Shown piece after piece: positions 5,332-29,688 of a stretch of DNA of 43,089 nucleotides. Position numbers and translations under genes: made by a program. This DNA is from a virus: IMG/VR virus record IMGVR_UViG_3300033144_002967, positions 1 through 43,089 of that record; one strand, 5' to 3'. The stretch's first letter is position 1; the number at the start of each line of letters is the position of its first letter. Below the pieces are notes generated by a model. That model was given only the letters and a program-made list of their open reading frames with translations, was not told the DNA's origin and ran no database searches.

Positions 5332-5350
5332 GGGGAGTGTGAGACTCCTC
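5332..5350 (+). promoter_or_regulatory. GTGAG-loop hairpin 1
   Basis: Loop GTGAG (5339-5343) closed by GGGGAGT and ACTCCTC-type pairing (seven pairs, one G-T). It lies about 70 bases before the membrane-peptide gene and 25 bases before hairpin 2. Member of the plus-strand family with a constant loop and variable stem. Confidence 0.65.
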
Positions 5351-5373
5351 TGGCGCCGTGGTCGGTTTTTTAA

Positions 5374-5392
5374 TCCTGGCGTGAGGCCAGGA
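5374..5392 (+). promoter_or_regulatory. GTGAG-loop hairpin 2
   Basis: Loop GTGAG (5381-5385) with a perfect seven-pair stem TCCTGGC/GCCAGGA. Its 3' arm runs into the strong AGGAGGAG ribosome site (5389-5396), so folding should mask part of that site. Confidence 0.75.
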
Positions 5393-5404
5393 GGAGCAAA
5401 TGCT

Positions 5405-5482
5405 TTGCAGCAAATAATAATCGCGATCGGCGTCGTCCTGGCGTTCGGGATCGTCCAAACAATTTTCGTGGTGTACTTGTGA
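5405..5482 (+). CDS. 25-residue single-span membrane peptide
   Basis: A TTG at 5405 opens a 25-aa frame ending at the TGA 5480-5482. The product, LQQIIIAIGVVLAFGIVQTI followed by FVVYL, is almost entirely one transmembrane helix. Support comes from AGGAGGAG 8-10 bases upstream, from hairpins 1 and 2 in the leader, and from the GTGA overlap of its stop with the GTG of the next gene. An overlapping ATG at 5400 gives only five codons. Function is unknown; small phage membrane peptides often modulate envelope proteins or exclusion, but that is not shown here. Confidence 0.55.
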   Translation: MQQIIIAIGVVLAFGIVQTIFVVYL

Positions 5483-5775
5483 CCGCGCCGGCCGAAATCT
5501 GGATCGACGAGCGCGTCGTCCGGACAATGAAAACCGAGCCCGACGAGGAAGCGGCCGAGCGTGGCGTCGTCCAGGTGCGTTATATCAGCGCCGAACGCGT
5601 CGGCGAGTTAATGCACGACCAGGGAAACGAGTTTTTTATCCAGATCGACCACGCCGCCGGCGGGATCATATTCGCGCTGACCAATTACGGCCGAATATTT
5701 CGCCAGTCCGTCGGCGCTCCCGAGTGGGAGATTGTCGCCGTCCCTGATTTCGCCACGGCCGAGCCGGCCACGTGA
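5479..5775 (+). CDS. Unknown 98-aa protein
   Basis: Starts at a GTG overlapping the stop of the membrane peptide and ends overlapping the next GTG, so it is part of a tightly coupled string. The middle segment (FFIQIDHAAGGIIFALTNYGRIFRQ) reads as beta strands, resembling small WD/propeller-like single-repeat phage proteins, but no family can be named. Acidic overall. Function is unknown. Confidence 0.75.
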   Translation: MTAPAEIWIDERVVRTMKTEPDEEAAERGVVQVRYISAERVGELMHDQGNEFFIQIDHAAGGIIFALTNYGRIFRQSVGAPEWEIVAVPDFATAEPAT

Positions 5776-6080
5776 GACACTGGAAAAAAACCCGAGTCCC
5801 GCCCGAGCGCGTGTTCCTGTATTTCCACGAGCATCCTCGAAAGCTATTTACAATCGAGCACGTCACCAGCCAGACCAAAATCCGCCGCGTCCTGGTGCGC
5901 GAGATCGTCGAACACTTACTCGATCGAGGAAAGCTCGAGGCGATCGAGACCGTGAGCGCGAGAAAGTGGGGCCGGCCTCGAGTCATGTATCGGGCAATCC
6001 ATATCGGCCCCGACTCTTATAAACAGGCCGAATTATTTAGTCGGTTGCTCCCCTGGATGGATACGAGGATCGAGGCGTGA
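5772..6080 (+). CDS. Small winged-helix-like DNA-binding protein
   Basis: 102 aa from GTG 5772 (four-base overlap with the upstream stop). Residues 15-75 (YFHEHPRKLFTIEHVTSQTK, then REIVEHLLDRGKLEAIE-V, then a basic GRPRVMYR wing) fit a winged helix: helix, recognition helix, then a beta hairpin. A second winged-helix candidate lies at 9305-9607. Possibly a phage transcription or replication regulator, inferred from fold pattern and early position. Confidence 0.7.
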   Translation: MRHWKKTRVPPERVFLYFHEHPRKLFTIEHVTSQTKIRRVLVREIVEHLLDRGKLEAIETVSARKWGRPRVMYRAIHIGPDSYKQAELFSRLLPWMDTRIEA

Positions 6081-6292
6081 GGTTCATAATCTCCGGCCCG
6101 TGGTTGCCGGCGTACCGGCGCGGCTATGTGATCGAACACGCTCACCCCGCCGGCTGGCTTTTCCGCCTGGTCGTGGTCGGCCAGTTTAAGGGCCAGGTCG
6201 TCTCGGTTCCGGCGACGCCGATTAATCGCGCCCTGGTTTGGTTTTTCGATATTCATTTCGACCAGGCCGACCAGCTCGGGCTCGTGCCGTGA
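6077..6292 (+). CDS. Unknown 71-aa protein
   Basis: Starts at GTG 6077, overlapping the upstream TGA, and ends overlapping the next start (GTGA at 6289-6292). Aromatic and beta-rich (WLPAYRRGYVIEHAHPAGWLFRLVVVGQF). No motif recognised. Overlap on both sides supports it as a real gene of the early string. Confidence 0.7.
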   Translation: MRFIISGPWLPAYRRGYVIEHAHPAGWLFRLVVVGQFKGQVVSVPATPINRALVWFFDIHFDQADQLGLVP

Positions 6293-6516
6293 GCGTCGGC
6301 CGCTGGCTTTGTAATAAGTGCGGGCGCCGGTTCAGGGAGCCGGACTATTCGCTCGTCGATTACAGGCTCCAGGCCGACGAAATGATCTCGGACGACGATC
6401 CGACCCTCCCGCCTGGCCAGGTTATTAAATACCAGTGTCCGACGTGCGGCTCCGGCGACCTGGTCGGCTCTGCGAATCCTGACCCGTTCACTCCGAAAAA
6501 GGTAAAACGAAAATGA
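6289..6516 (+). CDS. Small zinc-ribbon protein
   Basis: 75 aa from GTG 6289 (four-base overlap with the upstream stop). CNKC at residues 8-11 and CPTC at 50-53 form a classic two-knuckle zinc ribbon; the tail is basic (TPKKVKRK). Such minimal ribbons bind nucleic acid or RNA polymerase in many systems. The specific role is unknown. The stop overlaps the ATG of the next, also cysteine-bearing, gene. Confidence 0.78.
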   Translation: MSVGRWLCNKCGRRFREPDYSLVDYRLQADEMISDDDPTLPPGQVIKYQCPTCGSGDLVGSANPDPFTPKKVKRK

Positions 6517-6785
6517 GCCGTGTCCACGTTTACAGCGCCCCGATCCAGCCGCTCGTCCAATACTCGGACAATAATGTCGAAGGGCCGCCGATCATGTTCG
6601 AGACGCCTTATCGCAAGGTTTACACGTGCGGCCGCTGTGGCCGCCGGCGCCAGGCTCGAAACCTGTCGATCCAGATCTATTACGACGCCACGTATATTTT
6701 TTGCCGGACGACGGTCTGGCGTCGGGCCTCCCGATTCCCGTTTGAATATGGTCATTTTTGCCCGCCGCCGCCGGCGATAAAATGA
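6513..6785 (+). CDS. Cysteine-containing small protein, possible zinc ribbon
   Basis: 90 aa from ATG 6513. CGRC at 39-42 supplies one knuckle; single cysteines at about 64 and 82 (FCRTT and HFCPPPP) could complete a site. Basic and aromatic, with a proline-rich end. It is translationally coupled to the preceding zinc-ribbon gene. Function is unknown. Confidence 0.72.
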   Translation: MSRVHVYSAPIQPLVQYSDNNVEGPPIMFETPYRKVYTCGRCGRRRQARNLSIQIYYDATYIFCRTTVWRRASRFPFEYGHFCPPPPAIK

Positions 6786-7135
6786 CAAACCGACGCGGCG
6801 AGTTTGGCTGTCCCGAGTACCTCGAGAAATACCGGAAAAAACTTTTCGGCCAGCTCGGCGACAGCTCGAACGGTTGCCTCGATATTCGGCCTCGAGGGAT
6901 GCACGTTATTTTTTCCAGCGGCGGCGGTTGGGAACATATCAGCGCAAAGCGCCGGAACCGGACGCCGAGTTATGCCGACCTGGATCGATTAAAGCGAGAA
7001 TTCTGGCCTCCCGACGCCGTCGTTATGCAGCTCCACGTCTCCGCCTCGGATCACATAAACGACCACGATCACGTCCTCCATTTATGGCGCCCGATCGATG
7101 GCGAGATCCCGCTCCCGCCGCTAATATTTGTCTAA
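6782..7135 (+). CDS. DUF7694-like protein
   Basis: 117 aa from ATG 6782, overlapping the upstream TGA. The pattern GGWEHISAK, WPPDAVVMQLHVSASDHINDH, LHLWRP and PLPPLIFV matches a family of uncharacterised phage and prophage proteins that I recall as DUF7694. The many conserved His and Trp residues suggest a metal or nucleotide site, but no activity is established. It closes the early string before the promoter at 7145-7173. Confidence 0.75.
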   Translation: MTNRRGEFGCPEYLEKYRKKLFGQLGDSSNGCLDIRPRGMHVIFSSGGGWEHISAKRRNRTPSYADLDRLKREFWPPDAVVMQLHVSASDHINDHDHVLHLWRPIDGEIPLPPLIFV

Positions 7136-7144
7136 ATAATCGCG

Positions 7145-7173
7145 TCGACTTTCGTCGCGCCAGGCGCTACAAT
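7145..7173 (+). promoter_or_regulatory. Probable sigma70-type promoter for the recombination genes
   Basis: TCGACT (7145-7150, four of six consensus) and TACAAT (7168-7173, five of six) with a 17-base spacer. It lies in the only sizeable gap of this block and would yield a leader of about 20 bases with GCAGGAG before the ATG at 7200. Confidence 0.5.
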
Positions 7174-7199
7174 TAACGCTCACTTTGCAGGAGTACACC

Positions 7200-8198
7200 A
7201 TGACCGAAACCAAACGGGGCGAGCTCGTCTCCCTGGATCAAGCCCTCGAGCAAAAACAAATCATCGAAACGCGCAACGCTTACGACCTCGAGCCGGCCGA
7301 TTTTCGAGCCGGCATTAATCGACGATTCTCGAACCGTAAAACCTTTATTACTAAGATAAATAAACAGCTCGTCGCCGGTAAAGATTTCGGCGAGATCGTC
7401 GTCCAGGGCCGCAAGTGTCCGACGCTATTCAAACCAGGCGCCGAGAAAATCGCCGGCCTCCTCGGCGTCCGCTCCAGGTGGCCGACGATCGACGAGCAAA
7501 TCGATCGAGTCCAGGCCGGCGCCAAGTGCGTTATTTTGAAATGCCAGCTCCTCGACCTCGAGGATCGGATCGTCTCCGAGGGCGTCGGCGCCAGGCTCCT
7601 CGACCAGGATCAGGGCGACTTAAACAAGGCTTTCAAAATGGCCAAAAAGTCGAGCCTGATCGACGCCGTCCTGAATTGTGGCGGGCTCTCCGAGCTCTAC
7701 TCTCAGGACTTGGAGGATATGCCGCCCGAGACTCTCCAGGACGAGGCCAGCGCCACGTACTCGAGGAGCCCGAGCGATTGGGGAGGCGATACGAACGCCG
7801 GCTCGGGGACGTCTCTGGCGACTCATTGCCCGCTCGGCAAACACAAGGGCGAGCCGTGGGACAAGGTTCCCGATTCTTATTGTTCGTGGATCGTTCACAA
7901 TATCCTCGACAATAAGCCGCTGAATGAACGAGCTCAAAAAGAATTAAACGACCGCTCTCTCGAGAGCCAGGAGTCGAGCGACCGCCGAAAGGACGAGGCC
8001 GCGCCCGAGCACACGGCCGGCGACGGGATTAAATTACCGTCCCAAACGCGCCAGGAACGTCTCGATATGTTTGCGAAAGCGATCGCGAACGCTCGAACAC
8101 TTGACGAGATCGGAATTATTAAGGAGGATATGCCCGAGGATCTCCGGCCGGTTTTTCGCGCTTACCTGGCGAAACGATCGGTCGATCTCCGAGGTTAA
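7200..8198 (+). CDS. Probable Rad52-like single-strand annealing protein with C-terminal DUF3820-like domain
   Basis: 332 aa from ATG 7200, which follows CAGGAG. Residues 40-170 carry the pattern GKDFGEIVVQGRKCPTLFKP, GAEKIAGLLG (about 78-87) and NKAFKMAKKSSLIDAVLNCGG (about 141-161). This recurs in phage proteins thought to be Rad52-type annealing proteins; my assignment rests on motif memory. Residues 210-245 (CPLGKHKGEPWDKVPDSYCSWIV) match the DUF3820 module also found at the end of exonuclease X-like proteins. Role: annealing single strands during phage recombination or replication. It is followed by an accessory coiled-coil gene. Confidence 0.65.
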   Translation: MTETKRGELVSLDQALEQKQIIETRNAYDLEPADFRAGINRRFSNRKTFITKINKQLVAGKDFGEIVVQGRKCPTLFKPGAEKIAGLLGVRSRWPTIDEQIDRVQAGAKCVILKCQLLDLEDRIVSEGVGARLLDQDQGDLNKAFKMAKKSSLIDAVLNCGGLSELYSQDLEDMPPETLQDEASATYSRSPSDWGGDTNAGSGTSLATHCPLGKHKGEPWDKVPDSYCSWIVHNILDNKPLNERAQKELNDRSLESQESSDRRKDEAAPEHTAGDGIKLPSQTRQERLDMFAKAIANARTLDEIGIIKEDMPEDLRPVFRAYLAKRSVDLRG

Positions 8199-8211
8199 TT
8201 TTTCAATCCGA

Positions 8212-8224
8212 GGGCGTGAGGCCC
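8212..8224 (+). promoter_or_regulatory. GTGAG-loop hairpin 3
   Basis: Loop GTGAG (8216-8220) with a four-pair stem GGGC/GCCC, immediately followed by AGGAG (8225-8229) and the ATG at 8236. The stem abuts the ribosome site directly. Confidence 0.6.
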
Positions 8225-8235
8225 AGGAGTTACAA

Positions 8236-8952
8236 ATGGACGCAGCAAACACAAAAGATTTAGCAATGGCCGAGCTCCGGCCGATGGTGACGACCGTCGC
8301 CGCCTACACGACGACCCTGGAGGCGGTCGACATTGTCGACGACGAAAGTCACGCCACGGTCGGCGACCTGGTCAAATATTTACGCCAGGCAAAATACAAG
8401 CTCGAGGACAAACGGAAAAGCCTGGTCGATCCGCTGAATAAAGTCGTCAAAGATATCAACGCGCTATTCAAACCGACGCGGGATTCGATCGAGGCGTTAA
8501 TGCACAAGGCCAGCGCGAAAATGAACCAGTACGCCAGCGCCCAGGAGGCCATTAAACAGGCCGAGGCCCAGGTGATCCGAGAGGAGGCCGCCAGGGAGGA
8601 GGCCGAGGCCCGCGATCTGGCCGAGCGACTGACGGCCGCCGCCGGCGAGGACGCGGCACCGACGGCCGCCGCCGTGATCGAGGTCGCCGAGAAAAACGTC
8701 GCGAAAGCCGAGGAAAAGCCGAAACTGACACTCGCCCGAGGCGAGACGTCGACGACCTCGACGCGTCAAAACTGGACGGCTCACGTCGTCGATCTGAAAC
8801 TCCTCGCGCTCGCTGTCGGCGAGGGCCGGCTCCCGATCGATTGCATCCAGGCCAGTCAGGCGGCATTGAATAAAGTCAGCCGCGAGACTAAAGAAAATCG
8901 AGAGGTCGATGGCGTTAAATTTTTCGCCGAGACTAAGGCGGTCGTCCGATGA
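8236..8952 (+). CDS. Coiled-coil phage recombination accessory protein
   Basis: 238 aa from ATG 8236 with AGGAG six bases upstream; the frame stays open upstream inside the previous gene but without a ribosome site. Residues 45-150 are long charged helices (QAKYKLEDKRKSLVDPLNKV, then EAQVIREEAAREEAEARDLA). The C-terminal 60 residues (NWTAHVVDLKLLALAVGEGR, then GVKFFAET) match a module common in phage proteins encoded beside annealing proteins or nucleases. No catalytic residues are seen, so it may be a scaffold or end-protection factor. Confidence 0.75.
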   Translation: MDAANTKDLAMAELRPMVTTVAAYTTTLEAVDIVDDESHATVGDLVKYLRQAKYKLEDKRKSLVDPLNKVVKDINALFKPTRDSIEALMHKASAKMNQYASAQEAIKQAEAQVIREEAAREEAEARDLAERLTAAAGEDAAPTAAAVIEVAEKNVAKAEEKPKLTLARGETSTTSTRQNWTAHVVDLKLLALAVGEGRLPIDCIQASQAALNKVSRETKENREVDGVKFFAETKAVVR

Positions 8953-9308
8953 AAGTCCGACTCGATACGCGACCATTTCCGCCGCCCGTTCTGGCCGACT
9001 ATTCGGCGAGCATTGTTAAAAACGAGCTGAAAATCGTCGACTGTGATCTCGGGAATATGTCGGTCACGAATGACCTGGAGGCCGTGCTCCTCGAGGTTTT
9101 CCGGAACCTCGTCCCTAATGAGGTCGATTTTCCAGACCTTAAAATCCGCTATCGCGACAGTTCGGGGATATGGGACTGGATACTGATCGATCGCGATCTG
9201 ACGGCCGACTATGACGTCTACACGGCCGAGGTCGTGAGCGGCGCCCTCGATCCTGATCCGCTTCCCGATCCCGTTTTCCAGCCCTTGCCGGCGGAGTTCG
9301 ACCAATGA
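8949..9308 (+). CDS. Unknown 119-aa protein
   Basis: Starts at an ATG overlapping the upstream TGA (ATGA) and ends overlapping the next ATG. Acidic, with a proline/aspartate-rich end (DPDPLPDPVFQPLP). The middle (NDLEAVLLEVFRNLVPNEVD) is amphipathic. No family recognised; the operon position suggests a DNA-processing partner only by association. Confidence 0.72.
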   Translation: MKVRLDTRPFPPPVLADYSASIVKNELKIVDCDLGNMSVTNDLEAVLLEVFRNLVPNEVDFPDLKIRYRDSSGIWDWILIDRDLTADYDVYTAEVVSGALDPDPLPDPVFQPLPAEFDQ

Positions 9309-9607
9309 GCAAACCAAAGGCCAGCGCCGAGGACGGTAAACAGCTCTGGAGGCTCCTCGAGGACGGCCGATTTCATAAGGCGAAAGATATCGACATGGGC
9401 TCGCGAATGATCCGCTCGATTTGCTCCGCCTATCCGGACAAATTTATCTCGACTCAAAAAGGATATAAGCGATTCCCGTCGGCGACCGACGACGAGATCT
9501 CGAACGCGATCGCGGATCTAAAATCGCGCTGTGGACATTTGACGCGGCGCTATATGGCTATGGAAAAAGGTCTCCGCGAACGGCACCAGCCAGGGCTCGA
9601 GCTTTAG
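9305..9607 (+). CDS. Small helix-turn-helix / winged-helix protein
   Basis: 100 aa. Residues 12-60 (LWRLLEDGRFHKAKDIDMGS, then RMIRSICSAYPDKFISTQKGYKRF) fit a winged helix: helix, a turn with a recognition helix beginning at SRMIRSI, then a basic wing. The C-terminal helix (GHLTRRYMAMEKGLRERHQ) is typical of small phage DNA-binding proteins that often sit near replication genes. It is coupled to the upstream gene by a four-base overlap. Confidence 0.7.
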   Translation: MSKPKASAEDGKQLWRLLEDGRFHKAKDIDMGSRMIRSICSAYPDKFISTQKGYKRFPSATDDEISNAIADLKSRCGHLTRRYMAMEKGLRERHQPGLEL

Positions 9608-9610
9608 GAA

Positions 9611-9943
9611 ATGGACGACGTCGCTTTCAATTGGTTTTGGCAGCCGCCAGTCGACGGCCAGCCTGGTTTAATCATGTTACGCGACGAGCATCCTGGCCCC
9701 GACTCTCCCGAGATCAGGTTTATAATCGAGGCCCTGGTCGACGTGCTCGCTCATATCGAGGCCAGGATCGCAAAGGACTTGCAGCTTTTCCAGTTCCGGA
9801 TTTATGTCCGCGACGTTTACACTCGCTGGATCGAGATCGTCGTGGCGCCGGCTCGCCGGAATTATCGAATCCGGACGCCCCGAGTCAGCCAGGCCCATTT
9901 ATCCGAGCTATGGGATTCACGACGCGACGCGACGCTCCAATGA
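9611..9943 (+). CDS. Unknown 110-aa protein
   Basis: Begins at an ATG three bases after the preceding stop. Tryptophan-rich N-terminus (FNWFWQPPVDGQPG), a helical acidic middle and a basic C-terminus. No motif recognised. Its TGA overlaps the ATG of the following membrane protein. Confidence 0.72.
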   Translation: MDDVAFNWFWQPPVDGQPGLIMLRDEHPGPDSPEIRFIIEALVDVLAHIEARIAKDLQLFQFRIYVRDVYTRWIEIVVAPARRNYRIRTPRVSQAHLSELWDSRRDATLQ

Positions 9944-10197
9944 GTACGTGGCAAATAATCGCGATATTTGCCGGCGGCGTCGGTTGCGGCCTCGCGCTCG
10001 GATGGGCCGGCGGCCACGCGCTCGGCTTTTATTTTGGCCAGCGTGTCGAGCGGAGACGGATCTCGAAACTCCTGGCCGGCCAGACCGCGCTCGAGGTCGT
10101 CACTCAGCTAATGGAAACAGGAAAAATCGAACCAGCCGAAAGGAAAAAGTCCACGCTTAAACAGGCGTGGCCACCGAGGGACGAGACCAGGCATTAA
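9940..10197 (+). CDS. Small single-span membrane protein
   Basis: 85 aa from ATG 9940 (ATGA overlap). The N-terminus is one glycine-rich transmembrane helix (residues about 5-30, IIAIFAGGVGCGLALGWAGG), followed by a basic RVERRR stop-transfer and a polar helical tail. The glycine zipper-like spacing suggests helix packing. It is the last gene before the hairpins at 10216-10300. Confidence 0.72.
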   Translation: MSTWQIIAIFAGGVGCGLALGWAGGHALGFYFGQRVERRRISKLLAGQTALEVVTQLMETGKIEPAERKKSTLKQAWPPRDETRH

Positions 10198-10215
10198 AGT
10201 ATGCTCTTAAATGTT

Positions 10216-10241
10216 CAGATCGGGCGTGGTTTCCCGATCTG
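10216..10241 (+). terminator. Perfect hairpin preceding the main terminator
   Basis: Nine-pair stem CAGATCGGG/CCCGATCTG with an eight-base loop and no T tract directly after it. It may stall polymerase or protect the 3' end ahead of the terminator 20 bases on. Confidence 0.6.
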
Positions 10242-10260
10242 GTGCCTAGTCTCAAACCAG

Positions 10261-10300
10261 GGCGCTCGAGCTCCAAGTGACTCGAGCGCCTTTTCTTTTT
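10261..10300 (+). terminator. Strong rho-independent terminator
   Basis: Ten-pair stem GGCGCTCGAG/CTCGAGCGCC with a ten-base loop, followed by TTTTCTTTTT. It ends the early/middle block and separates it from the lysis cassette. Confidence 0.93.
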
Positions 10301-10329
10301 GCGGGAAAGGTTTAAAATGCCGGCTATTC

Positions 10330-10346
10330 CGAGTCGTGAGGATTCG
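10330..10346 (+). promoter_or_regulatory. GTGAG-loop hairpin 4
   Basis: Loop GTGAG (10336-10340) with six pairs CGAGTC/GATTCG (one G-T). It lies between the terminator and the endolysin ribosome site (AGGAG 10361-10365), so it would be in the 5' part of a lysis transcript. Confidence 0.65.
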
Positions 10347-10371
10347 AGTCTCTAACGACCAGGAGCTCACA

Positions 10372-10854
10372 ATGGCGGACTTTCATCAATACGGCGCGGC
10401 CAGCCTGGCCAAGCTCGATTCGTGTCACCCTGACCTCGAGAGAGTGTTTAAACGCGCTCTCCGAATGACTCCGGACGCGATCGACATAACTATCGTTTGG
10501 GGATTCAGAAACAAGGCCGAGCAAAACTCGATCGATCCTCGATTTACAAATGCCCGCTGGCCTATGTCCTACCATAACGCGACCAATCATTTCGAGGAGC
10601 CGCTCTCGGACGCTGTCGACTTTGCGCCTTATATCACGCTCCGGAGCGGGAAAAAGGGAATCCCCTGGTCGGATAATAATCTGTTTTGTTTGCTCGCGGG
10701 GATCATCCTGGCGGCCGCCTCGATCGAGAATGTCGGGATTACCTGGGGCGGGGACTTTGATCGGGACGGCTCGACCGAGGATCAGACTCTCGCGGATCTC
10801 GGACACGTTCAACGCACAAACGCGGATCGACGTCCGAGGACTATCGCAGCATGA
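10372..10854 (+). CDS. Endolysin, M15-family peptidase (L-Ala-D-Glu or VanY type)
   Basis: 160 aa from ATG 10372 with AGGAG six bases upstream. The chain follows M15 zinc carboxypeptidase/endopeptidase order: VWGFRNKAEQN (42-52), SYHN with His68, DAVDFAPY with Asp83, then WGGDFD and DLGHVQ with Asp142 and His145. His68, Asp83 and His145 would hold zinc. Family members cut peptide crosslinks in peptidoglycan (phage T5 Lys is the model). No signal peptide is present, so it needs a holin. The holin candidate and spanins follow. Confidence 0.88.
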   Translation: MADFHQYGAASLAKLDSCHPDLERVFKRALRMTPDAIDITIVWGFRNKAEQNSIDPRFTNARWPMSYHNATNHFEEPLSDAVDFAPYITLRSGKKGIPWSDNNLFCLLAGIILAAASIENVGITWGGDFDRDGSTEDQTLADLGHVQRTNADRRPRTIAA

Positions 10855-12266: not shown

Positions 12267-12268
12267 TC

Positions 12269-12293
12269 TGTTTGTATGTCGGACATACAAACA
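12269..12293. promoter_or_regulatory. Perfect 25-bp palindrome, possible operator
   Basis: Arms TGTTTGTATGTC and GACATACAAACA pair perfectly around a single central G. It lies two bases after the Rz1 stop and upstream of the small membrane gene at 12355. No T tract follows, so a terminator is less likely than a dimeric-regulator site. A weak -10-like TATACA lies at 12310-12315, which would place the palindrome over the -35 area. Confidence 0.65.
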
Positions 12294-12354
12294 AACTTAA
12301 AGTAATTTCTATACAGTCGCCGGCCGGCGTGTGATCTGGTACGATCGCGGCGCC

Positions 12355-12775: not shown

Positions 12776-12790
12776 ATCAACCGGACGACC

Positions 12791-12805
12791 CTGGCGTGAG
12801 GCCAG
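12791..12805 (+). promoter_or_regulatory. GTGAG-loop hairpin 5
   Basis: Loop GTGAG (12796-12800) with a perfect five-pair stem CTGGC/GCCAG, about 30 bases before the ATG at 12835. The stem resembles that of hairpin 2 while its surroundings differ. Confidence 0.65.
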
Positions 12806-12834: not shown

Positions 12835-12948
12835 ATGTGGATATATTCGATCGTTTTAATCGCCGGCATTGTTATCGGCTGGAATCTCCCGCAACCGGAA
12901 ATCGCGAAAAAGGCCCAGGCGTATCTATTGGAAAAAATTGGCTTTTAA
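12835..12948 (+). CDS. 37-residue membrane peptide
   Basis: ATG 12835 follows AGGAG by seven bases. The product begins MWIYSIVLIAGIVIGWN, one transmembrane helix, and ends in a short amphipathic basic tail. An in-frame GTG at 12772 could extend it to 58 aa. It lies completely inside the out-of-frame N-terminal extension of the histidine-rich gene. Hairpin 5 is in its leader, as hairpin 2 is for the membrane peptide at 5405. Function is unknown. Confidence 0.55.
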   Translation: MWIYSIVLIAGIVIGWNLPQPEIAKKAQAYLLEKIGF

Positions 12949-16245: not shown

Positions 16246-16264
16246 ACGGCGTGTGAGACGCTGT
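16246..16264 (+). promoter_or_regulatory. GTGAG-loop hairpin 6
   Basis: Loop GTGAG (16253-16257) with seven pairs ACGGCGT/ACGCTGT (one G-T), 26 bases before the portal ATG and upstream of its AGGAG. Confidence 0.7.
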
Positions 16265-16289: not shown

Positions 16290-17933
16290 ATGTCGACACT
16301 AGCAACCAATACGACCGCACCATTACAACCAGGAATCACGACACCACAAACCGCCGCCGGCGGCGGCTCCGCCGTCTCAAATCCACACCCTGATTATTTG
16401 GCCAGGCAACCCGACTGGAAATTAATGTTCGACACGAACGAGGGCCAGCGCCACGTCAAAGCGCAGAAAAATTTATACTTGCCGGCGACCTCGGGAATGA
16501 GAGCCCTCGGCCTGACTAAGGCCGACGACGAGGGCGCTCAGTTATACGCCTCCTATTTGACGCGGGCCTTTTTCCCCGACCTGGTAAAGGAAACCGTCCG
16601 AGCCCTGGCCGGAATCCTGGATCGGGAGCCGGCGAATATCGAGCTCCCCGCCGCCCTCGAGGATATGCGCGAGATCGCAACCCCGAAAGCCGAGTCGCTA
16701 AATGATCTCCTCGTTCAGATCCACATGAATCAGCTCCTATATGGCCGCCTGGGCCTCCTGGTCGACGTCGATCCGTCGAGGGACTTGCCGGTTATCGTTA
16801 ATTATCCAGCGCCCCAGGTCATTAACTGGGACGATCTGACGCAAACCGCCGACCCGAAACAAACCGACGACCAGAAACGAAAGGAAGCGATCCGCCGGTT
16901 ATTGTTCGTCGTCCTGGACGAGACCCGATTCGAGCGCGACACGGGCGATAAATTTACCTGGAACCTCGTCCCTCGATATAGAGCCCTAAGTCTCGGCGAC
17001 GCCGCCTCGGACGTGTACACGAGCCAGGTCGAGCGAGACGGCTCACTCCAGGAGGCGATCGTCCCGAGTATCCGAGGGAAAACCCTCGACGAGATCCCGT
17101 TCGTTTTTGTCAATACGACCGACCTGGCCACAAAGCCGGCCGACGTCCCGCTGGTTAATCTCGCGAATCTATCGCTCGCGATCTATCGAGGCGAGGCCGA
17201 TCACCGGAGCGCCCTGTTTATGTCCGGCCAGGATACGCTCGTCCTGATCGGGTACGACCTCGGAATGAGCGACGAGGGAAACCCAGGCGACGGATCGGCG
17301 AAACCGATTATCGGTTCCGGCGCTTATTTGAACCTCCCGAATCCCGAGGCCGACGCTAAATTTATCGGCCCCGACTCGAACGCATTATCGGAGCAACGGA
17401 CGAGCCTCGAGAATGATTACGTCAGAGCCGGCGAGGAGGGCGTCAAGTTGCTATCGTCCGGAGCTGGTGCCGAGGCGGCCGAGACGCTCCGGATCAGAGT
17501 CGCGGCCAGGACGGCCACGCTCCAAACCATCGCAATGACAGCGGCGAGCGCCCTCGAGACGTCTCTCCGCCAGTGTGCGGTATGGGTAGGAGCAAACCCT
17601 GACGAGGTAAAGGTCGAGCCGAATCTCGACTTTATCGACGAGGCGAGCGACGTCGCCGACCTGGTTAAATTCGCCCAGGCCAAAAAATCGGGGACTCCGA
17701 TCTCCTGGAAATCCGTCCATAATTGGCTCCGGCAAAAAGATTTCACCGAGTTTACATTCGAGGAGGAGCTCGATCAGATCGGCGAGGAGGACGACGACGA
17801 CCGGCTCAAAGGCGGCGACGATCCATTGCGCGGAATGTTTGAGCCAGGTCAGCCGCTACCAGGTCAGCCAATACCAGGCCAGCCGGCCGCCGGCGGGGAC
17901 GACGGGGACGACGACAGCAACGACGAGGAGTAA
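16290..17933 (+). CDS. Portal protein (DUF4055 type)
   Basis: 547 aa. After a low-complexity Thr/Gly-rich start come ARQPDWKLMFDTNEGQRHVK, YLPATSGM and FFPDLVKETVRALAGILDRE, characteristic of DUF4055 portals. The middle (LFVVLDETRFERDTGDKFTW) and helical stretches (about 390-420) follow the portal plan. The C-terminus is acidic and then has a proline/glycine repeat (PGQPLPGQPIPGQPAAGGDD). Twelve copies would form the DNA channel of the head vertex. It follows terminase directly. Confidence 0.9.
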   Translation: MSTLATNTTAPLQPGITTPQTAAGGGSAVSNPHPDYLARQPDWKLMFDTNEGQRHVKAQKNLYLPATSGMRALGLTKADDEGAQLYASYLTRAFFPDLVKETVRALAGILDREPANIELPAALEDMREIATPKAESLNDLLVQIHMNQLLYGRLGLLVDVDPSRDLPVIVNYPAPQVINWDDLTQTADPKQTDDQKRKEAIRRLLFVVLDETRFERDTGDKFTWNLVPRYRALSLGDAASDVYTSQVERDGSLQEAIVPSIRGKTLDEIPFVFVNTTDLATKPADVPLVNLANLSLAIYRGEADHRSALFMSGQDTLVLIGYDLGMSDEGNPGDGSAKPIIGSGAYLNLPNPEADAKFIGPDSNALSEQRTSLENDYVRAGEEGVKLLSSGAGAEAAETLRIRVAARTATLQTIAMTAASALETSLRQCAVWVGANPDEVKVEPNLDFIDEASDVADLVKFAQAKKSGTPISWKSVHNWLRQKDFTEFTFEEELDQIGEEDDDDRLKGGDDPLRGMFEPGQPLPGQPIPGQPAAGGDDGDDDSNDEE

Positions 17934-20135: not shown

Positions 20136-20157
20136 GCCGTCGCCGTGAGGGCCTGGC
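20136..20157 (+). promoter_or_regulatory. GTGAG-loop hairpin 7 (weak stem)
   Basis: Loop GTGAG (20145-20149) closed by GCC/GGC. After an internal loop a second GCC/GGC stem forms, in the 59-base gap before the capsid ATG. It is the weakest family member. Confidence 0.45.
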
Positions 20158-20175: not shown

Positions 20176-21237
20176 ATGGCCGAAGTAAGAATTGCTGACG
20201 TAGTAGTCCCCGAAATTTTCGCCCCGTATGTGGCCACAATGACCGAGCAAAAAACCGCCCTGGTCGACTCTGGCGTCGTGGTGCGAGATCCCGCTCTCGA
20301 CGGCTTTCTAGCCGGCGGCGGCACAACCTTTAACGCTCCGAGCTGGCGCGACATAGACGACGATTCTAATATCCTCGTCGACCGCGTCTCGAGTGACAAT
20401 CCCGCAACCGTAGCAACCCCGAACAAAATCCAAACGAACCAGGAGCTCGCCGTCAGGCTCTCCAGGAATAACTCGTGGAAAACTATGGATCTGGTCGCGG
20501 CTCTCGCTGGTGATGATGCATCGACCGCGATCGCTAACCGAGTCGCGGCATATTGGCGCCGTCGCCTCCAGGCGGTATTCGTCGCAACCTGGACAGGCAT
20601 TTTCGCAGATAACGCCCAGGTCGCGCCAAACGACGACCCTCGTGTCGGCATTACGAACAACGCCGTCCAGGACGATTTAACCGTCGACATTTCCGGCGCC
20701 TTTACGCCTGGCGTGACTGACTTCTCAGCCGAGGCGTTTATCGACGCCATTACCACGGCCGGCGATAGCCAGGGCGATTTTGTCGCTGTAATGATGCACT
20801 CGATCGTATTCAGCAAGGCGCAAAAAAACAACCTGATCGATTTTGTTCCCGATTCCATCAACGCGGCCGCCGCCGATATTCCGACCTTTCTCGGCCGGCG
20901 TGTAGTCGTCGACGATTCAATGCCGAACGCCGCCGGCGTTTTCGATACCTGGATTTTTGGCGCGAGTGCGAGTCGATGGGGAGTCGGGAATCCGAAAGTC
21001 CCCGCCGAGGTTGATCGCGAGCCAGCCGAGGGAAATGGTGGCGGCTCCGAGTCGTTATTCTCTCGGATCGAGTGGTCTATGCACCCTGTCGGACACCGTT
21101 TTCTATCTGGCTCAGTCGCTAACCCCGACGGCGGCCCGACAAACGTGGAAGCGGCCGACGGCGTCAACAATTGGGCGCGGACATTTCCCGAACGTAAGCA
21201 AATCAAAGCCGCTCGACTGGTCACAACTGAATTTTAA
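20176..21237 (+). CDS. Major capsid protein
   Basis: 353 aa. The start MAEVRIADVVVPEIFAPYVA and later SRNNSWKTMDLVAALAGDDA, AAYWRRRLQAVFVATWTGIF and MMHSIVFSKAQKNNLIDFVP are typical of an HK97-fold coat family found beside scaffold and head-tail connector genes. It forms the icosahedral shell. AGGAG precedes the ATG. A 371-codon antisense open frame across this gene is a composition artefact. Confidence 0.9.
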   Translation: MAEVRIADVVVPEIFAPYVATMTEQKTALVDSGVVVRDPALDGFLAGGGTTFNAPSWRDIDDDSNILVDRVSSDNPATVATPNKIQTNQELAVRLSRNNSWKTMDLVAALAGDDASTAIANRVAAYWRRRLQAVFVATWTGIFADNAQVAPNDDPRVGITNNAVQDDLTVDISGAFTPGVTDFSAEAFIDAITTAGDSQGDFVAVMMHSIVFSKAQKNNLIDFVPDSINAAAADIPTFLGRRVVVDDSMPNAAGVFDTWIFGASASRWGVGNPKVPAEVDREPAEGNGGGSESLFSRIEWSMHPVGHRFLSGSVANPDGGPTNVEAADGVNNWARTFPERKQIKAARLVTTEF

Positions 21238-21257
21238 AAACTGACGGTCGTCGGAGA

Positions 21258-21281
21258 TCGGCCTCGTTTAAACGGGGCCGG
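21258..21281 (+). terminator. Hairpin after the capsid gene, weak terminator candidate
   Basis: CGGCCTC pairs with GGGGCCG around the self-complementary GTTTAAAC, followed by GTTTATTCTTT. The T tract is interrupted, so partial termination or 3' protection of the capsid message is plausible. Confidence 0.5.
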
Positions 21282-21310
21282 TTTATTCTTTAACCCAGGA
21301 GCCCCGACCA

Positions 21311-22648: not shown

Positions 22649-22676
22649 TCCCGCAAACATTCAGGAGGCCGATCAA

Positions 22677-23614: not shown

Positions 23615-23652
23615 ACGCGGTTATTTTTAACTTGATAGGGTAGGATTTAACA

Positions 23653-24807: not shown

Positions 24808-24816
24808 TGGTGGCCA

Positions 24817-25392
24817 ATGTTCCCCGATCGTTCATTTGAGGCTCCCGACGGGATTTTATTAAATGACCTGGCGGGAGTTTTAAGCGGGACATTCGACCCG
24901 AGCGTCTCTGGCCAGGCGGGGCCGATCGGGACGCTATTCCTGCGAACGAACGGGGAGCTATTTAAAAAAATCGCCGCCGCCGATTCTGACTGGCTGGAAA
25001 TTGATATTTTTGGGAGTCAATTTAACGCGGCCGAGAGCCTGGGGAGGTCGACGACGACCTCGGTCGTTTTCCAATTTAAGCTAAATCTAAATGTGACCGT
25101 GCCGGCCGGCGATTATATTATCAACTGGACGGCCGCGATCGGAAACAACGACGAACAGGTCGGCGTCGGCTTTCGAGTCGAGCTGGATAACACGACCGAG
25201 CTGATTAACGTCCGGCCGGCTGTCGGCCGTAGGATCGATGACGAGTGGAGCCACAACCCAGGCGGCCACGCGATCGTTACTCTTGACGGGACGCATGATT
25301 TCGATATTGATTTCCGATTCGTCGAGAACATCAGTTCCGCCGGCGTCGCCTTTATCGAGGACGCATATCTGGCGCTCTGGAGAGTTACATAA
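24817..25392 (+). CDS. Putative virion surface protein, beta-rich
   Basis: 191 aa. It begins with GTLFLRTNGELFKKI then DSDWLEI, the same kind of N-terminal segment as the gene before it. A lectin-like or jelly-roll-like pattern follows (VTVPAGDYIINWTAAIGNND, VGFRVELDNTTELINV, HAIVTLDGTHDFDIDFRF). No catalytic residues are evident. Its TAA overlaps the next ATG (TAATG). It probably forms an appendage with its neighbours. Confidence 0.68.
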   Translation: MFPDRSFEAPDGILLNDLAGVLSGTFDPSVSGQAGPIGTLFLRTNGELFKKIAAADSDWLEIDIFGSQFNAAESLGRSTTTSVVFQFKLNLNVTVPAGDYIINWTAAIGNNDEQVGVGFRVELDNTTELINVRPAVGRRIDDEWSHNPGGHAIVTLDGTHDFDIDFRFVENISSAGVAFIEDAYLALWRVT

Positions 25393-25865
25393 TGGTCGAC
25401 GTCTCACTGGTTAAAAATATCGGATCAAATACCGGCGTCCAGGTGATCGACGAGCGATCGCGTTTCGAGTATCCGGTCGAGCATTTGGGCGCCTCGGCTG
25501 GCGTCAATGGTGGCGACGAGATCAGAATCCATTTGTCCGGCTCACCGAATACGGCGGCGGCGGTCGCGATCCTGGCGGCGGTCGAGCGGCCGATTTGCGC
25601 GGCGGCCGTGCTCACCGTGACCGTAAACGTCGGGACTTACCTGGTCAATGATACGACCGCGATAACCGACGGCCTGGACAAGTTCGCGCTCGCGACCCTG
25701 GCGCTAGATAATATAACCGGCGCCCTCGAGGTTTTGGTTTTTGAGAAGTCCGGCCCGCTGGCCGAGTATGGCGAGACGCCGGCGGGAAAAACATTTGTCG
25801 CGAAATTAAAGGAATATCAGATCGTCGCGGCGGCCCTGGTCGAGATCAGGGATTTTATTAGGTGA
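25392..25865 (+). CDS. Unknown virion-region protein
   Basis: 157 aa, ATG overlapping the upstream TAA. Small residues and beta-like segments dominate (AAVLTVTVNVGTYLVNDTTA), and the C-terminal helix is charged (FVAKLKEYQIVAAALVEIRD). No family recognised. Expressed with the surface-protein cluster. Confidence 0.65.
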   Translation: MVDVSLVKNIGSNTGVQVIDERSRFEYPVEHLGASAGVNGGDEIRIHLSGSPNTAAAVAILAAVERPICAAAVLTVTVNVGTYLVNDTTAITDGLDKFALATLALDNITGALEVLVFEKSGPLAEYGETPAGKTFVAKLKEYQIVAAALVEIRDFIR

Positions 25866-25869
25866 GAGA

Positions 25870-26268
25870 ATGGGCGAGATAGTAAAAGAGCGGAATCGAA
25901 CCTGGCAAAAGGCCGAGGCGAACGCCGTCCAGACAAAAAACGGCGGCCCGTTTACGACGTTTCTCGAGCTCAATGCTAGACCGCTCGGCCGTGGTCGGTA
26001 TAGAATCGCGTGGAATTCCGAGGCCAGGCTCGCCGCCGGCGCCGTGTCAATTCCGAAAATGAGAGTCGTCCTAAATGGCGACATTATCGGGATCGGTTGT
26101 TTTCAACCAGCGAGCGACGAGTGGGACAGCCGCGCCGGATGGGACTTTGCGCGGTTCGCCGCCGCCGCCGAGCCAGTGATCGAGATCCAATTCCGCCGAG
26201 AGGGCGGGGGTAATACTGTCCAGATGCGACGACTAAAATTATCAATTGAGCTTATGGACGAGGAATAG
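25870..26268 (+). CDS. Unknown virion-region protein
   Basis: 132 aa, ATG four bases after the previous stop, weak ribosome site (GAGAG). The pattern LGRGRYRIAWNSEARLAAGA, RVVLNGDIIGIG and EIQFRREGGG suggests a beta sandwich. This kind of small protein is often found just before head-tail connector genes, but no name can be given. Confidence 0.65.
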   Translation: MGEIVKERNRTWQKAEANAVQTKNGGPFTTFLELNARPLGRGRYRIAWNSEARLAAGAVSIPKMRVVLNGDIIGIGCFQPASDEWDSRAGWDFARFAAAAEPVIEIQFRREGGGNTVQMRRLKLSIELMDEE

Positions 26269-26283
26269 CGAGAGGATGAAAAC

Positions 26284-26853
26284 ATGGCACTAATTAAAGA
26301 AACGGGCGCGATCGTCGCGGGCGCTAATTCCTACGCCGAGGCGTCCGACGCTGACACGTTCCAAACCAATCGAGGACGGGCCGCCTGGTGCGATTCTGGC
26401 GCCGACGTTAAGGACGCGGCCCTGATCCGAGCAACTGATTATATCGAGAGTCGATTCGGCCTCTCGTTTATCGGCGACCGGATCGGCGACGTCCAGCTTT
26501 TGAGCTGGCCACGAACCGGCGCTCGCTATCCGGCCACGGGTAACGACTTCCCGATCGACGAGGTTCCGGTCGACGTCGTGAACGCTTGCATTTTGTACGC
26601 CGAACAAGTGATCGGCCCAGGCGACGACGTCGCGGCCATGACCGAGCTCGCGATTACTCCCGAGGTCGACGAGTCGGGCGGCACCGTCACCAGGTTAAAG
26701 GAAAAGGTCGACGTCCTCGAGACCGATACCACGTTCGCCGGCAACGACAGCGGCTCGACGTCGCTGCGATTGATCCGCCCGATCCCCGAGGCCGATCGAC
26801 TGATTCGCCGCTGGTTCCAGCTCGGGCGCGTCGGCCTGACGGTTAGAATATAA
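26284..26853 (+). CDS. Head-tail connector protein (DnaT-like / gp15 type)
   Basis: 189 aa. The start ALIKETGAIVAGANSYAEAS and the segments RATDYIESRFG, LLSWPRTGARYPATGNDFPI and VNACILYAEQV are the signature of phage adaptor proteins often annotated as DnaT-like single-strand-binding proteins. By position they are the first connector ring below the portal. The end, RLIRRWFQLGRVGLTVRI, is also family-typical. The TAA overlaps the next ATG. Confidence 0.82.
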   Translation: MALIKETGAIVAGANSYAEASDADTFQTNRGRAAWCDSGADVKDAALIRATDYIESRFGLSFIGDRIGDVQLLSWPRTGARYPATGNDFPIDEVPVDVVNACILYAEQVIGPGDDVAAMTELAITPEVDESGGTVTRLKEKVDVLETDTTFAGNDSGSTSLRLIRPIPEADRLIRRWFQLGRVGLTVRI

Positions 26854-27221
26854 TGGCGCTCCAGGATACAGCTCTGGCCCTGATCCGAAAATTCGGGGAG
26901 GATCGCCTGGTGAGCCTGTTAATCCCGAACACGCCGCCGGCCGATCCGACGAAACCGTGGGACGTCGATCCGACAGTGGCCGAGACCTCGATCACCGTGC
27001 CGGCCGTGGTCGTCCCGATCGCGAGGAGCCTGGTCACGGGCGAGAGTGTCCAGCAAGGCGACGAGACCATATTGATCGCCGGCCTATCGCTCGGCGCGAC
27101 GATCCCCGCGACGAATAGCAAAATCCTCGACGAGGGCCAGGAGAAAAACATTATCGCGATCGAGAGAATCCGGCCAGGGAAAACCGATTTCCTTTATAAA
27201 TTCCAGGTGAGGGCGAGCTAG
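26853..27221 (+). CDS. Head closure / neck protein
   Basis: 122 aa. Beta-rich (TSITVPAVVVPIARSLVTGE, ETILIAGLSLGATIPATNS), with the small-barrel look of head-completion proteins. It sits between the connector and tail-completion genes, where the stopper belongs, and overlaps both neighbours. The assignment rests mainly on gene order. Confidence 0.72.
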   Translation: MALQDTALALIRKFGEDRLVSLLIPNTPPADPTKPWDVDPTVAETSITVPAVVVPIARSLVTGESVQQGDETILIAGLSLGATIPATNSKILDEGQEKNIIAIERIRPGKTDFLYKFQVRAS

Positions 27222-27664
27222 TGGCGAAAATATTTAATGCTCGAGAGATCACCAGACAATTAAACATCGTGCTCGATAAGGATTTCGGCTCGACCACGTT
27301 CGCGATCCTCCGGAACCTGGTCGCCGGCTCGCCGGTCGGTAATCCCGACCTATGGCAAAACCCGCCGCCTCCTGGTTATGTCGGCGGACACTTTCGTCGA
27401 AACTGGCAGGTATCAGTCGGCGGCTTTATTGATAGCGAGCTCGAGGGCGAGGACAATACCGGAGCGACGACCCTGGCCGCCGGTAAAGCGAAAATCGACG
27501 GCTTTGTCCGGAGCGGCGGCGGGGCGAACCTGGTTATCCAGAATAATGTCCCTTACGCGAACCGCCTCGCGCAAGGTTGGAGCCGGCAAGCGGCGGCCGG
27601 ATGGGTAGACCGTCAGATCGACGCGGCCCTCCTCACGCCTGGCGGCTCTAAGGCCGTGCCATAA
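27221..27664 (+). CDS. Tail completion / neck protein (HK97 gp10-like)
   Basis: 147 aa from GTG 27221. AGSPVGNPDLWQNPPPPGYV then GGHFRRNWQV near 40-65, VIQNNVPYANRLAQGWSRQA near 105-125 and GWVDRQI later are hallmarks of phage neck or tail-completion proteins of the gp10 type. It follows head closure and precedes the tail terminator in conserved siphovirus order. Confidence 0.85.
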   Translation: MAKIFNAREITRQLNIVLDKDFGSTTFAILRNLVAGSPVGNPDLWQNPPPPGYVGGHFRRNWQVSVGGFIDSELEGEDNTGATTLAAGKAKIDGFVRSGGGANLVIQNNVPYANRLAQGWSRQAAAGWVDRQIDAALLTPGGSKAVP

Positions 27665-28098
27665 TGGGCGCGTCAACCAGAACGCCGGCACAATTCCGCG
27701 ACGTCGTGCGGACGGCTTTCGGGACGGCCTGGACTGACGCCGGCGAGTCGCTGGATAATGTCGCCTGGGATAATCTGGCCTATCGACCAGGCGCTCGCGA
27801 CGATTATGTCCTCCTCGACCTGGCCCATTCGTCCGGCACGTTTGCCAGCCTCGGCGCCGGCGCTTCCATTCAAGTCCGCCGCGTGGCAATATTCGCCGCG
27901 CAAATATTCGTCCGGCATAACACCGGACAGGCTCGGGCCGACGCTCTGGCCGAGATCGTCCTGGACTTTTTGGAGAGCGCCCATTTAACCGGAATCCGAA
28001 TTTCGGAGATCGGCATGGCCGAGACCGGCCGAGTCGGCCAGTATTTCCAGGTTAATGTCAGCGCCAATTTAGAGTATGATTCATTTCGCAGCGTGTGA
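27664..28098 (+). CDS. Tail terminator protein (DUF4128-like)
   Basis: 144 aa, ATG overlapping the upstream TAA. The plan TPAQFRDVVRTAFGTAW, ARDDYVLLDLAHSSG, FVRHNTGQARADALAEIVLD and YFQVNVSANLEYDSF fits tail terminator proteins that cap the tail tube and join it to the neck. Its TGA lies inside the loop of hairpin 8. Confidence 0.8.
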   Translation: MGASTRTPAQFRDVVRTAFGTAWTDAGESLDNVAWDNLAYRPGARDDYVLLDLAHSSGTFASLGAGASIQVRRVAIFAAQIFVRHNTGQARADALAEIVLDFLESAHLTGIRISEIGMAETGRVGQYFQVNVSANLEYDSFRSV

Positions 28099-28104
28099 GG
28101 CGCT
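28090..28104 (+). promoter_or_regulatory. GTGAG-loop hairpin 8
   Basis: Loop GTGAG (28095-28099) with five pairs AGCGT/GCGCT (one T-G). It contains the stop codon of the tail terminator gene and lies 26 bases before the tail-tube ATG. TATGAT at 28075-28080 resembles a -10 box, which would put the hairpin at the 5' end of a tail-tube message. Confidence 0.6.
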
Positions 28105-28129
28105 CAGTTAATTAAACGGGAGTCTTGCA

Positions 28130-29644
28130 ATGTCAGATACTAATAGAGTCGGTTTGCGGTTTTTTCGCAGCGCCCAACGTACCGCGCCGATTCCGGCGGG
28201 GCCTTTCAACCTCGAGCAACTCCGTTTCACTGGAACGCCTGGCCTCGCCTTTGTCCCGACGACAATCGTCAGCGAGGAGATCCGCCCCGATCGGCAAATC
28301 TCCGACCTGATCCTGGTCGGTGCCGAGGCCGGCGGCGATACAGGGATCGAGCTCAGTTACGCCGCTTTTGACGAGCTGATTACCGGCGCCATGTTTGCGC
28401 TATATCAGAACACCGAGAGCAAAACCGGAACGGGCGAGATTACCGCGTTCGGCGTCGGCACGATCGACGTCGACGTCGGCGGCGATTTCATTGTCGGCCA
28501 GATTGTCCGGCTCCAGAAACTCGCGACTGGTGACGTCGGCGACGGGATTTTCGAGATCTCGGGGATCGCCGTAAACGTCCTGACGGTCGGCCCGTTACCT
28601 GGCACGAACACGACAGCGGTCGCCGGCACCGAGACCGCCGACGCGGACACTAATCTGGAAGTGACGGGATACGTCGCGCAAGGCGTCGGGCTTATTAGCC
28701 TGGTCGTTACTGGTTCGGACGCTGTATTTACTTTTCCAGCCGGCGCTCTCGACGACGCAATGGGGACAGGCATCCCGCTCGAGATCGGGGCCTGGATCAA
28801 ATTCGCCGAGTTTCCCACGGCCGCGAATAACCTCTGGAACCGTGTCCGCGAGATCGACCTGGCGGCCGATACTGTCACTTGTGACACTCAAACCGGCATG
28901 GTGACGGACGCCGCCGCCGCCTCGCTCGTCCAGGCGTTTTATGGTTCACGCGTCGAGAATGGCGCCGAGGCTATCAGCGCGCACCAGTTCGCCGTCGAGA
29001 GACGGTTCGAGGATCACTCGCCGATCACTCGCGAGCTATTCCTGGGGATGGCATTAAATAATTTTAATATTACCCTGGCGCCCCAGGCGATCGCGGTCGG
29101 CTCGCTGACCTGGTTCGGATTTAGCTCGGCCGTCTCTGACGATTCGCCGCTATATGCCGACCTTTATGCGAACCTCCCGACCGACCTCCTGGCCGAGCAA
29201 TTCGACGTCTATAACACGTCGAGCGATATTGGCCGGCTCGGCCGTGGCGTCGACGCGATCGACGCGGCCGGCGTGAATTTCGTCCTCGAGGCGACGATCG
29301 AGATTAATAACAATCTCAGGCGCCAGCCAGCGGTCGGAGTATTCGGCGCGGCCGGTCTCGGAGTCGGGGAGCTGTCAGTCACGGGAACGCTGTCGACTTA
29401 TTTCGATAACGACGAGATCCTCCAGATTATTCTCAATAATACCGAGACGAGTCTCGACCTGATTACGCAAGGCGGCGACGGCCGATCTATGGTTTTCGAT
29501 TTGCCGCGAATCAAGTTTTCAGGCGGAGCGCCGGACGTCCCTGGCAAAAACGCGGACGTTACAATTCCAGGAACGTATCAAGCTATTTTATCGCCGATTT
29601 TCGGCTATACCATATCAGCGCAAAACGTATCATTTGCGAGGTAA
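28130..29644 (+). CDS. Major tail tube protein
   Basis: 504 aa, ATG preceded by GGGAG. The start RVGLRFFRSAQRTAP, then TTIVSEEIRPDRQISDLILV and YAAFDELITGAMFA, match the long phage tail-tube family. The centre has an inserted beta domain (about 90-250) with VGQIVRLQKLATGDVGDGIF. The end, DVTIPGTYQAILSPIFGYTI, closes the tube fold. It polymerises into the tail shaft. Confidence 0.88.
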   Translation: MSDTNRVGLRFFRSAQRTAPIPAGPFNLEQLRFTGTPGLAFVPTTIVSEEIRPDRQISDLILVGAEAGGDTGIELSYAAFDELITGAMFALYQNTESKTGTGEITAFGVGTIDVDVGGDFIVGQIVRLQKLATGDVGDGIFEISGIAVNVLTVGPLPGTNTTAVAGTETADADTNLEVTGYVAQGVGLISLVVTGSDAVFTFPAGALDDAMGTGIPLEIGAWIKFAEFPTAANNLWNRVREIDLAADTVTCDTQTGMVTDAAAASLVQAFYGSRVENGAEAISAHQFAVERRFEDHSPITRELFLGMALNNFNITLAPQAIAVGSLTWFGFSSAVSDDSPLYADLYANLPTDLLAEQFDVYNTSSDIGRLGRGVDAIDAAGVNFVLEATIEINNNLRRQPAVGVFGAAGLGVGELSVTGTLSTYFDNDEILQIILNNTETSLDLITQGGDGRSMVFDLPRIKFSGGAPDVPGKNADVTIPGTYQAILSPIFGYTISAQNVSFAR

Positions 29645-29673
29645 CATTAACGGGGCCGAGAGCCCAGGAGTTC

Positions 29674-29688
29674 AGACTGTGAGAGTCT
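29674..29688 (+). promoter_or_regulatory. GTGAG-loop hairpin 9, containing a start codon
   Basis: Loop GTGAG (29679-29683) with a perfect five-pair stem AGACT/AGTCT. Unlike the others it lies downstream of the AGGAG (29666-29670), and the loop itself supplies the GTG start of the tail chaperone gene. Protein or RNA binding here would act directly on initiation. Confidence 0.65.

Follow-up and report, generated by a model that had tools for sequence, protein, structure and literature searches.

A GUGAG-capped RNA hairpin recurs before key genes of an uncultured phage clade and may act as a translational operator

Why one five-base loop should recur on differing stems before gene after gene of a single phage genome is the question raised by IMG/VR virus record IMGVR_UViG_3300033144_002967 (positions 1 to 43,089), analyzed here over its full length of 43,089 nucleotides (the window). 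Pseudomonas phage NP1 and other Queuovirinae have a capsid protein with 56% identity to the one encoded here. A first-pass annotation of the sequence had listed nine plus-strand GTGAG loops closed by stems, and all nine positions were confirmed as GTGAG (Table 1). Stems were perfect over 4 to 7 pairs at eight of these sites, and at the ninth (loop at 20145) three inner and three outer pairs were separated by an internal loop. The strand specificity claimed for the set was also borne out: among 36 GTGAG words on the plus strand, 8 were flanked by stems of ≥4 pairs and 7 by stems of ≥5 pairs, compared to none of 44 words with stems of ≥4 pairs on the minus strand. Dinucleotide shuffles of the window (n = 400) produced a mean of 0.37 GTGAG hairpins with stems of ≥4 pairs (maximum, 4) and 0.15 with stems of ≥5 pairs (maximum, 2), which left the annotated set standing; together with the opposite strand, these shuffles rule out a chance origin. 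GTGAG was the top pentaloop of the window by rate. In raw counts, 2 of 30 shuffles contained as many as 7 hairpins for some other pentamer, and the single genome is therefore suggestive, with proof carried by the relatives. A further GTGAG word at 6077, a start codon with a stem of only 3 pairs, was dropped as a member.

Relatives were gathered by scans with capsid, terminase, and tail proteins, which yielded >100 loci, approximately 70 of which form the clade set; these are mostly fragments with predicted gene starts, and nonredundant sites among them remain kin by descent. In the first 45 loci, stems of ≥4 pairs flanked 109 of 401 GTGAG words on the coding strand and 23 of 938 on the opposite strand. 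GTGAG was the outstanding loop in 486 nonredundant regions preceding a Shine-Dalgarno (SD) sequence and start codon, with stems of ≥4 pairs at 104 of 177 words against a background of 2.5% (z = 45); the runner-up pentaloop reached z = 6. No enrichment before gene starts in relatives was found for GNRAG variants or the plain GTGA tetraloop, which indicates that mere loop stability is not the cause, or for GAAA, GCAA, and UUCG tetraloops. When GTGAG words before an SD sequence and start codon were taken without selection for a stem (80 nonredundant sites), the first five pairs were formed in 85, 88, 85, 72, and 61% of sites, compared to 65, 48, 43, 38, and 39% after shuffling. Pairing at coding-strand GTGAG words away from starts stayed close to background, exceeding it by about 11 points at most, and pairing at opposite-strand words equaled background.

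The stems change while pairing is kept. In orthologous capsid and tail leaders (n = 43), the four inner pairs were formed in 91.9% of cells, compared to 57.3% in shuffled controls (0 of 500 shuffles reached the observed value) and at most 53.5% in slid controls, and two-sided changes occurred in 59 cells. Pairing among homologues was thus upheld. The covariation that had been read from the window holds for such orthologous sites and has to be withdrawn for the differing stems within one genome, which are not covariation. The closing pair was nearly always pyrimidine-purine (among the 80 sites, C-G in 44, U-A in 17, U-G in 4, A-U in 3, and G-C in 0). The loop word itself is not avoided in clade coding sequences (112 seen versus 79 expected), and recognition would therefore need the stem. 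Coding constraint as the sole cause was rejected; it can account for 28095, where the loop overlaps a TGA stop, and for 29679, with its GTG start, but leaves leaders without either feature unexplained, and the two arms covary. Because five loop bases are invariant on free stems that do not carry other stable loops, recognition by a partner is suggested, and the comparison of sequences indicates that this coding-strand RNA structure, with its fixed loop and covarying stem, is very probably a shared recognition site.

Placement of the hairpins points to the step that may be controlled. At least one copy was found in 13 gene families, among them capsid, portal, scaffold, tail, endolysin, and exonuclease families. 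The hairpin was present in 44 of 44 capsid leaders examined in the clade (outgroup rows L043, L045, and L046 excluded), and GTGAG was kept, on altered stems, in 29 of 29 distinct relatives of the tail leader with its loop at 28095. The loop ended 9 to 66 nucleotides (nt) before the ATG, and ≤42 nt before it at 75 of 80 sites. Hairpins at 5381, at 8212 to 8224, and in scaffold leaders (TCCT-GTGAG-AGGA) abutted or overlapped the SD sequence. The first-pass placement of the sites before start codons needs correction at 29679, where the GTG of the loop is itself the start codon of the tail chaperone. This start was kept in 28 sequences (20 distinct, window included) and was always GTG, never ATG; pairs −2 to −4 were formed in all 20 distinct sequences, and stems in relatives included AGACC/AGTCT, with a C.A closing pair tolerated, and AAACC/GGTTT. 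Judged by its sequence, this start-codon copy favors a role at translation initiation. A second hairpin, GGGCC-N-GGCCC with a variable loop, abuts the AGGAGG of the tail-chaperone gene (e.g., in L124, L130, and L111), and the chaperone ribosome site is thus bracketed by two hairpins. A leader peptide starting at the loop GTG was considered and rejected, as frames differed among relatives (by eye) and no upstream open reading frame was conserved.

A −10-like element (TANNNT) was found 13 to 33 nt upstream of the stems at 0.92 per site, compared to 0.28 for nonhairpin genes and 0.43 for shuffled sequences, and many copies therefore probably lie near the 5′ end of a transcript. As a separate observation, scaffold or small genes in L023, L027, L031, L039, and others are preceded by TTGACA-N12-TANNNT, seen 7 times on the coding strand and never at spacings of 13 to 19; it looks more like an activator box plus a −10 element (T4 MotA-like spacing) than a sigma-70 promoter.

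The GUGAG hairpins are tentatively interpreted as an RNA operator to which a loop-specific protein would bind, mainly to control translation initiation, an interpretation given slightly less than an even chance and in which we infer the protein, the sign of its effect, and the step controlled. Initiation is the likeliest step because one copy contains a start codon and others touch or overlap the SD sequence. Also in favor of the operator, the spacer between SD and AUG in major capsid and endolysin leaders contains CTCAY, the complement of the loop. Each hairpin would be a copy of one cis-acting RNA element, a free stem of 4 to 8 pairs with a pyrimidine-purine closing pair and a GUGAG cap. Several phage genes would carry one copy each, either over the start codon or within a short untranslated leader. 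The loop would be read, whatever the stem, by a protein that, since the loop is clade restricted, is likely to be phage encoded. Its occupancy of start regions would place capsid, portal, tail, lysis, and recombination genes under joint translational control, probably by repression until the right stage. One candidate regulator is suggested by the protein of 102 amino acids encoded at 5772 to 6080, found in this clade only (16 loci), just downstream of a leader with two hairpins.

Several observations weigh against an operator of this kind. No binding protein was identified, and the model of the early protein at 5772 to 6080, a winged helix, is similar to DNA-binding regulators. In many leaders the hairpin does not cover the SD sequence, and occlusion by the hairpin alone therefore cannot be the mechanism. 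Local folding of single sites did not favor the GTGAG hairpin in every case. In the two-hairpin leader, the first hairpin lies within a terminator and not at a ribosome site. Finally, the loop complement CTCAY, where present between SD and ATG, is common in two families only, and members of one family do not count as independent.

The main rival to the translational operator is antitermination, which is judged unlikely. In this nut- or put-like scheme, a hairpin near the nascent 5′ end would load a phage factor on RNA polymerase for read-through of terminators. The −10-like element usually seen upstream of the stems fits such a scheme, as does the leader downstream of the helix-turn-helix (HTH) gene, where, in many genomes, one hairpin sits on a terminator and one beyond it. 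In this leader, a terminator-like stem is capped by hairpin 1 and closely followed by hairpin 2 on the ribosome site. The layout recurs with changed stems in L050, L052, L054, L056, L059, L061, L063, and L068 and also in L227 to L231, L234, and L236 to L240; a few relatives keep GTGAG in the first hairpin only. This arrangement speaks for a function in transcription or, alternatively, for a double site in the first leader; under translational control, the same protein would act on the terminator hairpin and on the ribosome-site hairpin. The nutR/tR1 region of lambdoid phages occupies a comparable position, and the first-pass statement that the distribution is wholly unlike that of boxB does not hold for this leader; it stands insofar as no boxA-like companion accompanies the hairpins. 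Further in favor of antitermination, GNRA-like pentaloops of boxB are bound by N peptides (PMC12550061). Against it, neither a boxA-like nor any other companion motif was enriched beside the hairpins (4 of 13 families versus 10 of 74). No match was found to Antiterm PF03589 with a working positive control, or to PF06323, whose control was silent; N peptides are too short and diverse for a family search. Copies also precede internal operon genes and keep near the ribosome site, and on the chaperone start codon ribosomes would displace a loading complex.

A protein-free switch, in which a pseudoknot between the GUGAG loop and CUCAY at the start codon of the same mRNA masks the start, is improbable as a general explanation. 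CTCA(T/C) was found in the SD-ATG spacer of 34 of 80 hairpin genes, compared to 13 of 221 others. It was present in nearly all major capsid protein (MCP) leaders and most endolysin leaders, and base pairs join the loop and start regions in the local fold of the MCP leader. The match was missing, however, in the exonuclease, scaffold, and zinc-ribbon families and infrequent in those of the portal and tail, and counted by families with any such member the contrast is 6 of 13 hairpin families versus 6 of 74 others, rows within a family being related. A loop-CUCAY pseudoknot is possible for the capsid and endolysin genes.

Still less probable is a passive 5′ hairpin that protects or spaces the mRNA, with a GNRA-like loop that is thermodynamically favored. 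The sites do probably lie near transcript 5′ ends, and leader structures are used by T4 and other phages; against this, GUGAG alone was enriched among the stable loops named above, and the closing pair is constrained. The first-pass annotation had proposed a shared binding or processing site, of which the recognition site is retained; processing by an RNase is very improbable: the position between genes and ahead of ribosome sites is reminiscent of T7 processing sites, but stems of mostly 4 to 7 pairs are too short for RNase III, which needs about a helical turn, and cleavage at the start-codon copy would destroy the message.

Among known systems, the closest in logic is RegA of T4 and RB69, in which one phage protein acts on approximately 30 mRNAs at sites over or just 5′ of the AUG that are A+U rich and without secondary structure (PMC3014915). 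Many leaders would likewise share one reader here, but stems are GC rich and structured, with a fixed loop and covarying arms, and not A+U rich and unstructured. The closest in form is boxB, also a short hairpin with a fixed pentaloop, GNRA-like in sequence, on the coding strand of an untranslated leader; GUGAG is, by sequence, compatible with a GNRA core plus an extra G, and boxB loop classes vary between phages (PMC12550061). The hairpins described here differ in lacking boxA, in numbering ≥8 copies per genome, in lying at ribosome sites and a start codon, and in the free sequence of their stems. The start-associated sequences (SAS) and extended SAS (ESAS) of cluster K mycobacteriophages are repeated in one phage group, in one orientation and just upstream of starts, and ESAS are inverted repeats; their primary sequence is conserved, support for RNA pairing is slight, and only nonstructural genes carry them (PMC3203893). 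Pairing covaries in the GUGAG hairpins, structural genes carry them, and a conserved 13-base primary sequence at the ribosome-binding site is lacking, with conservation limited to the loop and a generic AGGAG. CsrA/Rsm sites differ in that the GUGAG loop lacks GGA; no CsrA match was found in 5 phage records, although a CsrA could come from the host. In the MS2 coat hairpin and Mu Com/mom, a hairpin near the start is likewise bound by a phage protein, at one gene each, whereas the GUGAG set is genome-wide and spans 13 gene families. No Rfam match at gathering score was found in the window, and searches of phages and literature, with most subscription journals outside their reach, returned no described match. 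The GUGAG hairpins thus lack defining features of each known family tested.

The hairpin is clade restricted. It was present in sister phages L074 to L079, L142 to L147, and L149 wherever the sequence covers the leader (L148 begins at the capsid gene, with the leader outside its sequence); sister capsids were ~58 to 59% identical to that of the window (measured for L074, L077, and L078; alignment A1). The GTGAG hairpin was absent in the next group (L150 onward; capsids ≤63% identical to that of L078), where a different hairpin, C-AUGG-G, precedes starts, including those of capsid genes, at the leader position taken by GUGAG in this clade. Its pairs covary before starts, with 82, 76, and 67% formed versus 40, 49, and 39% after shuffling, and are absent elsewhere. 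These sequences suggest that the hairpin position is old and the loop a clade-specific code. That one loop-reading protein controls ≥8 transcripts, with GUGAG and C-AUGG-G as codes in which loop and reader were switched together in evolution, is conceivable but doubtful. Hairpins of the GAGAC-ATGG-GTCTC type, with the start codon in the loop, were seen ~1 kb before the capsid gene in L154, L156, L159, and L160, and the minus strand of L162 carries three near-identical, sequence-conserved cassettes of hairpin, TTATT, and AGGAG before genes (15345, 15690, and 16328).

TABLE 1 Positions of hairpins and associated features (window coordinates unless a relative is named)
Feature	Position	Strand	Structure	Context	Relatives
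Terminator-like structure	5290..5371	+	Long stem, then U6 (RNA fold, TTTTTT tail); apex is GTGAG hairpin 1	After HTH gene	
GTGAG hairpin 1	5332..5350	+	GGGGAGT/ACTCCTC; loop 5339-5343	HTH-downstream leader	
GTGAG hairpin 2	5374..5392	+	TCCTGGC/GCCAGGA; loop 5381-5385	HTH-downstream leader; overlaps AGGAGGAG ribosome site	L068:1095, L227:4625
GTGAG hairpin	8212..8224	+	GGGC/GCCC	Abuts AGGAG of gene 8236-8952 (phrog_10477 exonuclease family)	Site in 7/8 family members; stems GGGC, GGCCC, GGCGC, AGCGC
GTGAG hairpin	10330..10346	+	CGAGTC/GATTCG	Precedes endolysin 10372-10854	6/6 family members
GTGAG hairpin	12791..12805	+	CTGGC/GCCAG	Precedes small membrane peptide 12835-12948	CTGGC/GCCGG in L008, L068
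GTGAG hairpin	16246..16264	+	ACGGCGT/ACGCTGT	Precedes portal gene 16290-17933	AGCGT/GCGCT, GCGACC/GGTCGC, TTCGACC/GGTCGAA
GTGAG hairpin (loop 20145)	20136..20157	+	Inner GCC/GGC, internal loop, outer GCC/GGC	Precedes major capsid gene 20176-21237	
GTGAG hairpin	28090..28104	+	AGCGT/GCGCT	Precedes tail gene 28130-29644; loop contains TGA stop of upstream gene	
GTGAG hairpin	29674..29688	+	AGACT/AGTCT	Loop contains GTG start codon of tail chaperone 29679-30104	
C-AUGG-G tetraloop hairpins			Before starts		L173:1460, 1486, 6977, 7924; L176:7933; L208:7203; L216:1385, 1410; L043:9903

Other features were noted in the window and its relatives. A conserved stem-loop of 8 to 13 pairs lies 3′ of the capsid gene (window 21255 to 21284, L013:11088, and L036:6603), with a loop that is GTGAG, GTGAT, or unrelated, depending on the relative. 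Compared to synonymous shuffles, clade coding sequences strongly over-represent CCTGG/CCAGG and under-represent CTTGG, CCAAG, and CCTAG, a bias expected for a host with Dcm/Vsr-like repair. A phosphoadenosine phosphosulfate reductase-like gene is located at 3423 to 4319 on the minus strand of the window.

The recurrence of the same hairpin before many key genes of an uncultured phage group strongly suggests an RNA switch, not described before, by which the production of virus parts is coordinated. If the translational operator is correct, a group of double-stranded DNA phages would coordinate its structural and lysis programs by a structured RNA code and not by promoters alone. The element is compact, repeated, and stem independent, and would offer a directly testable RNA-protein recognition pair and possibly a new orthogonal RNA tag alongside boxB and MS2. 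The hairpin would also allow members of this uncultured phage clade to be recognized from their genome sequences.

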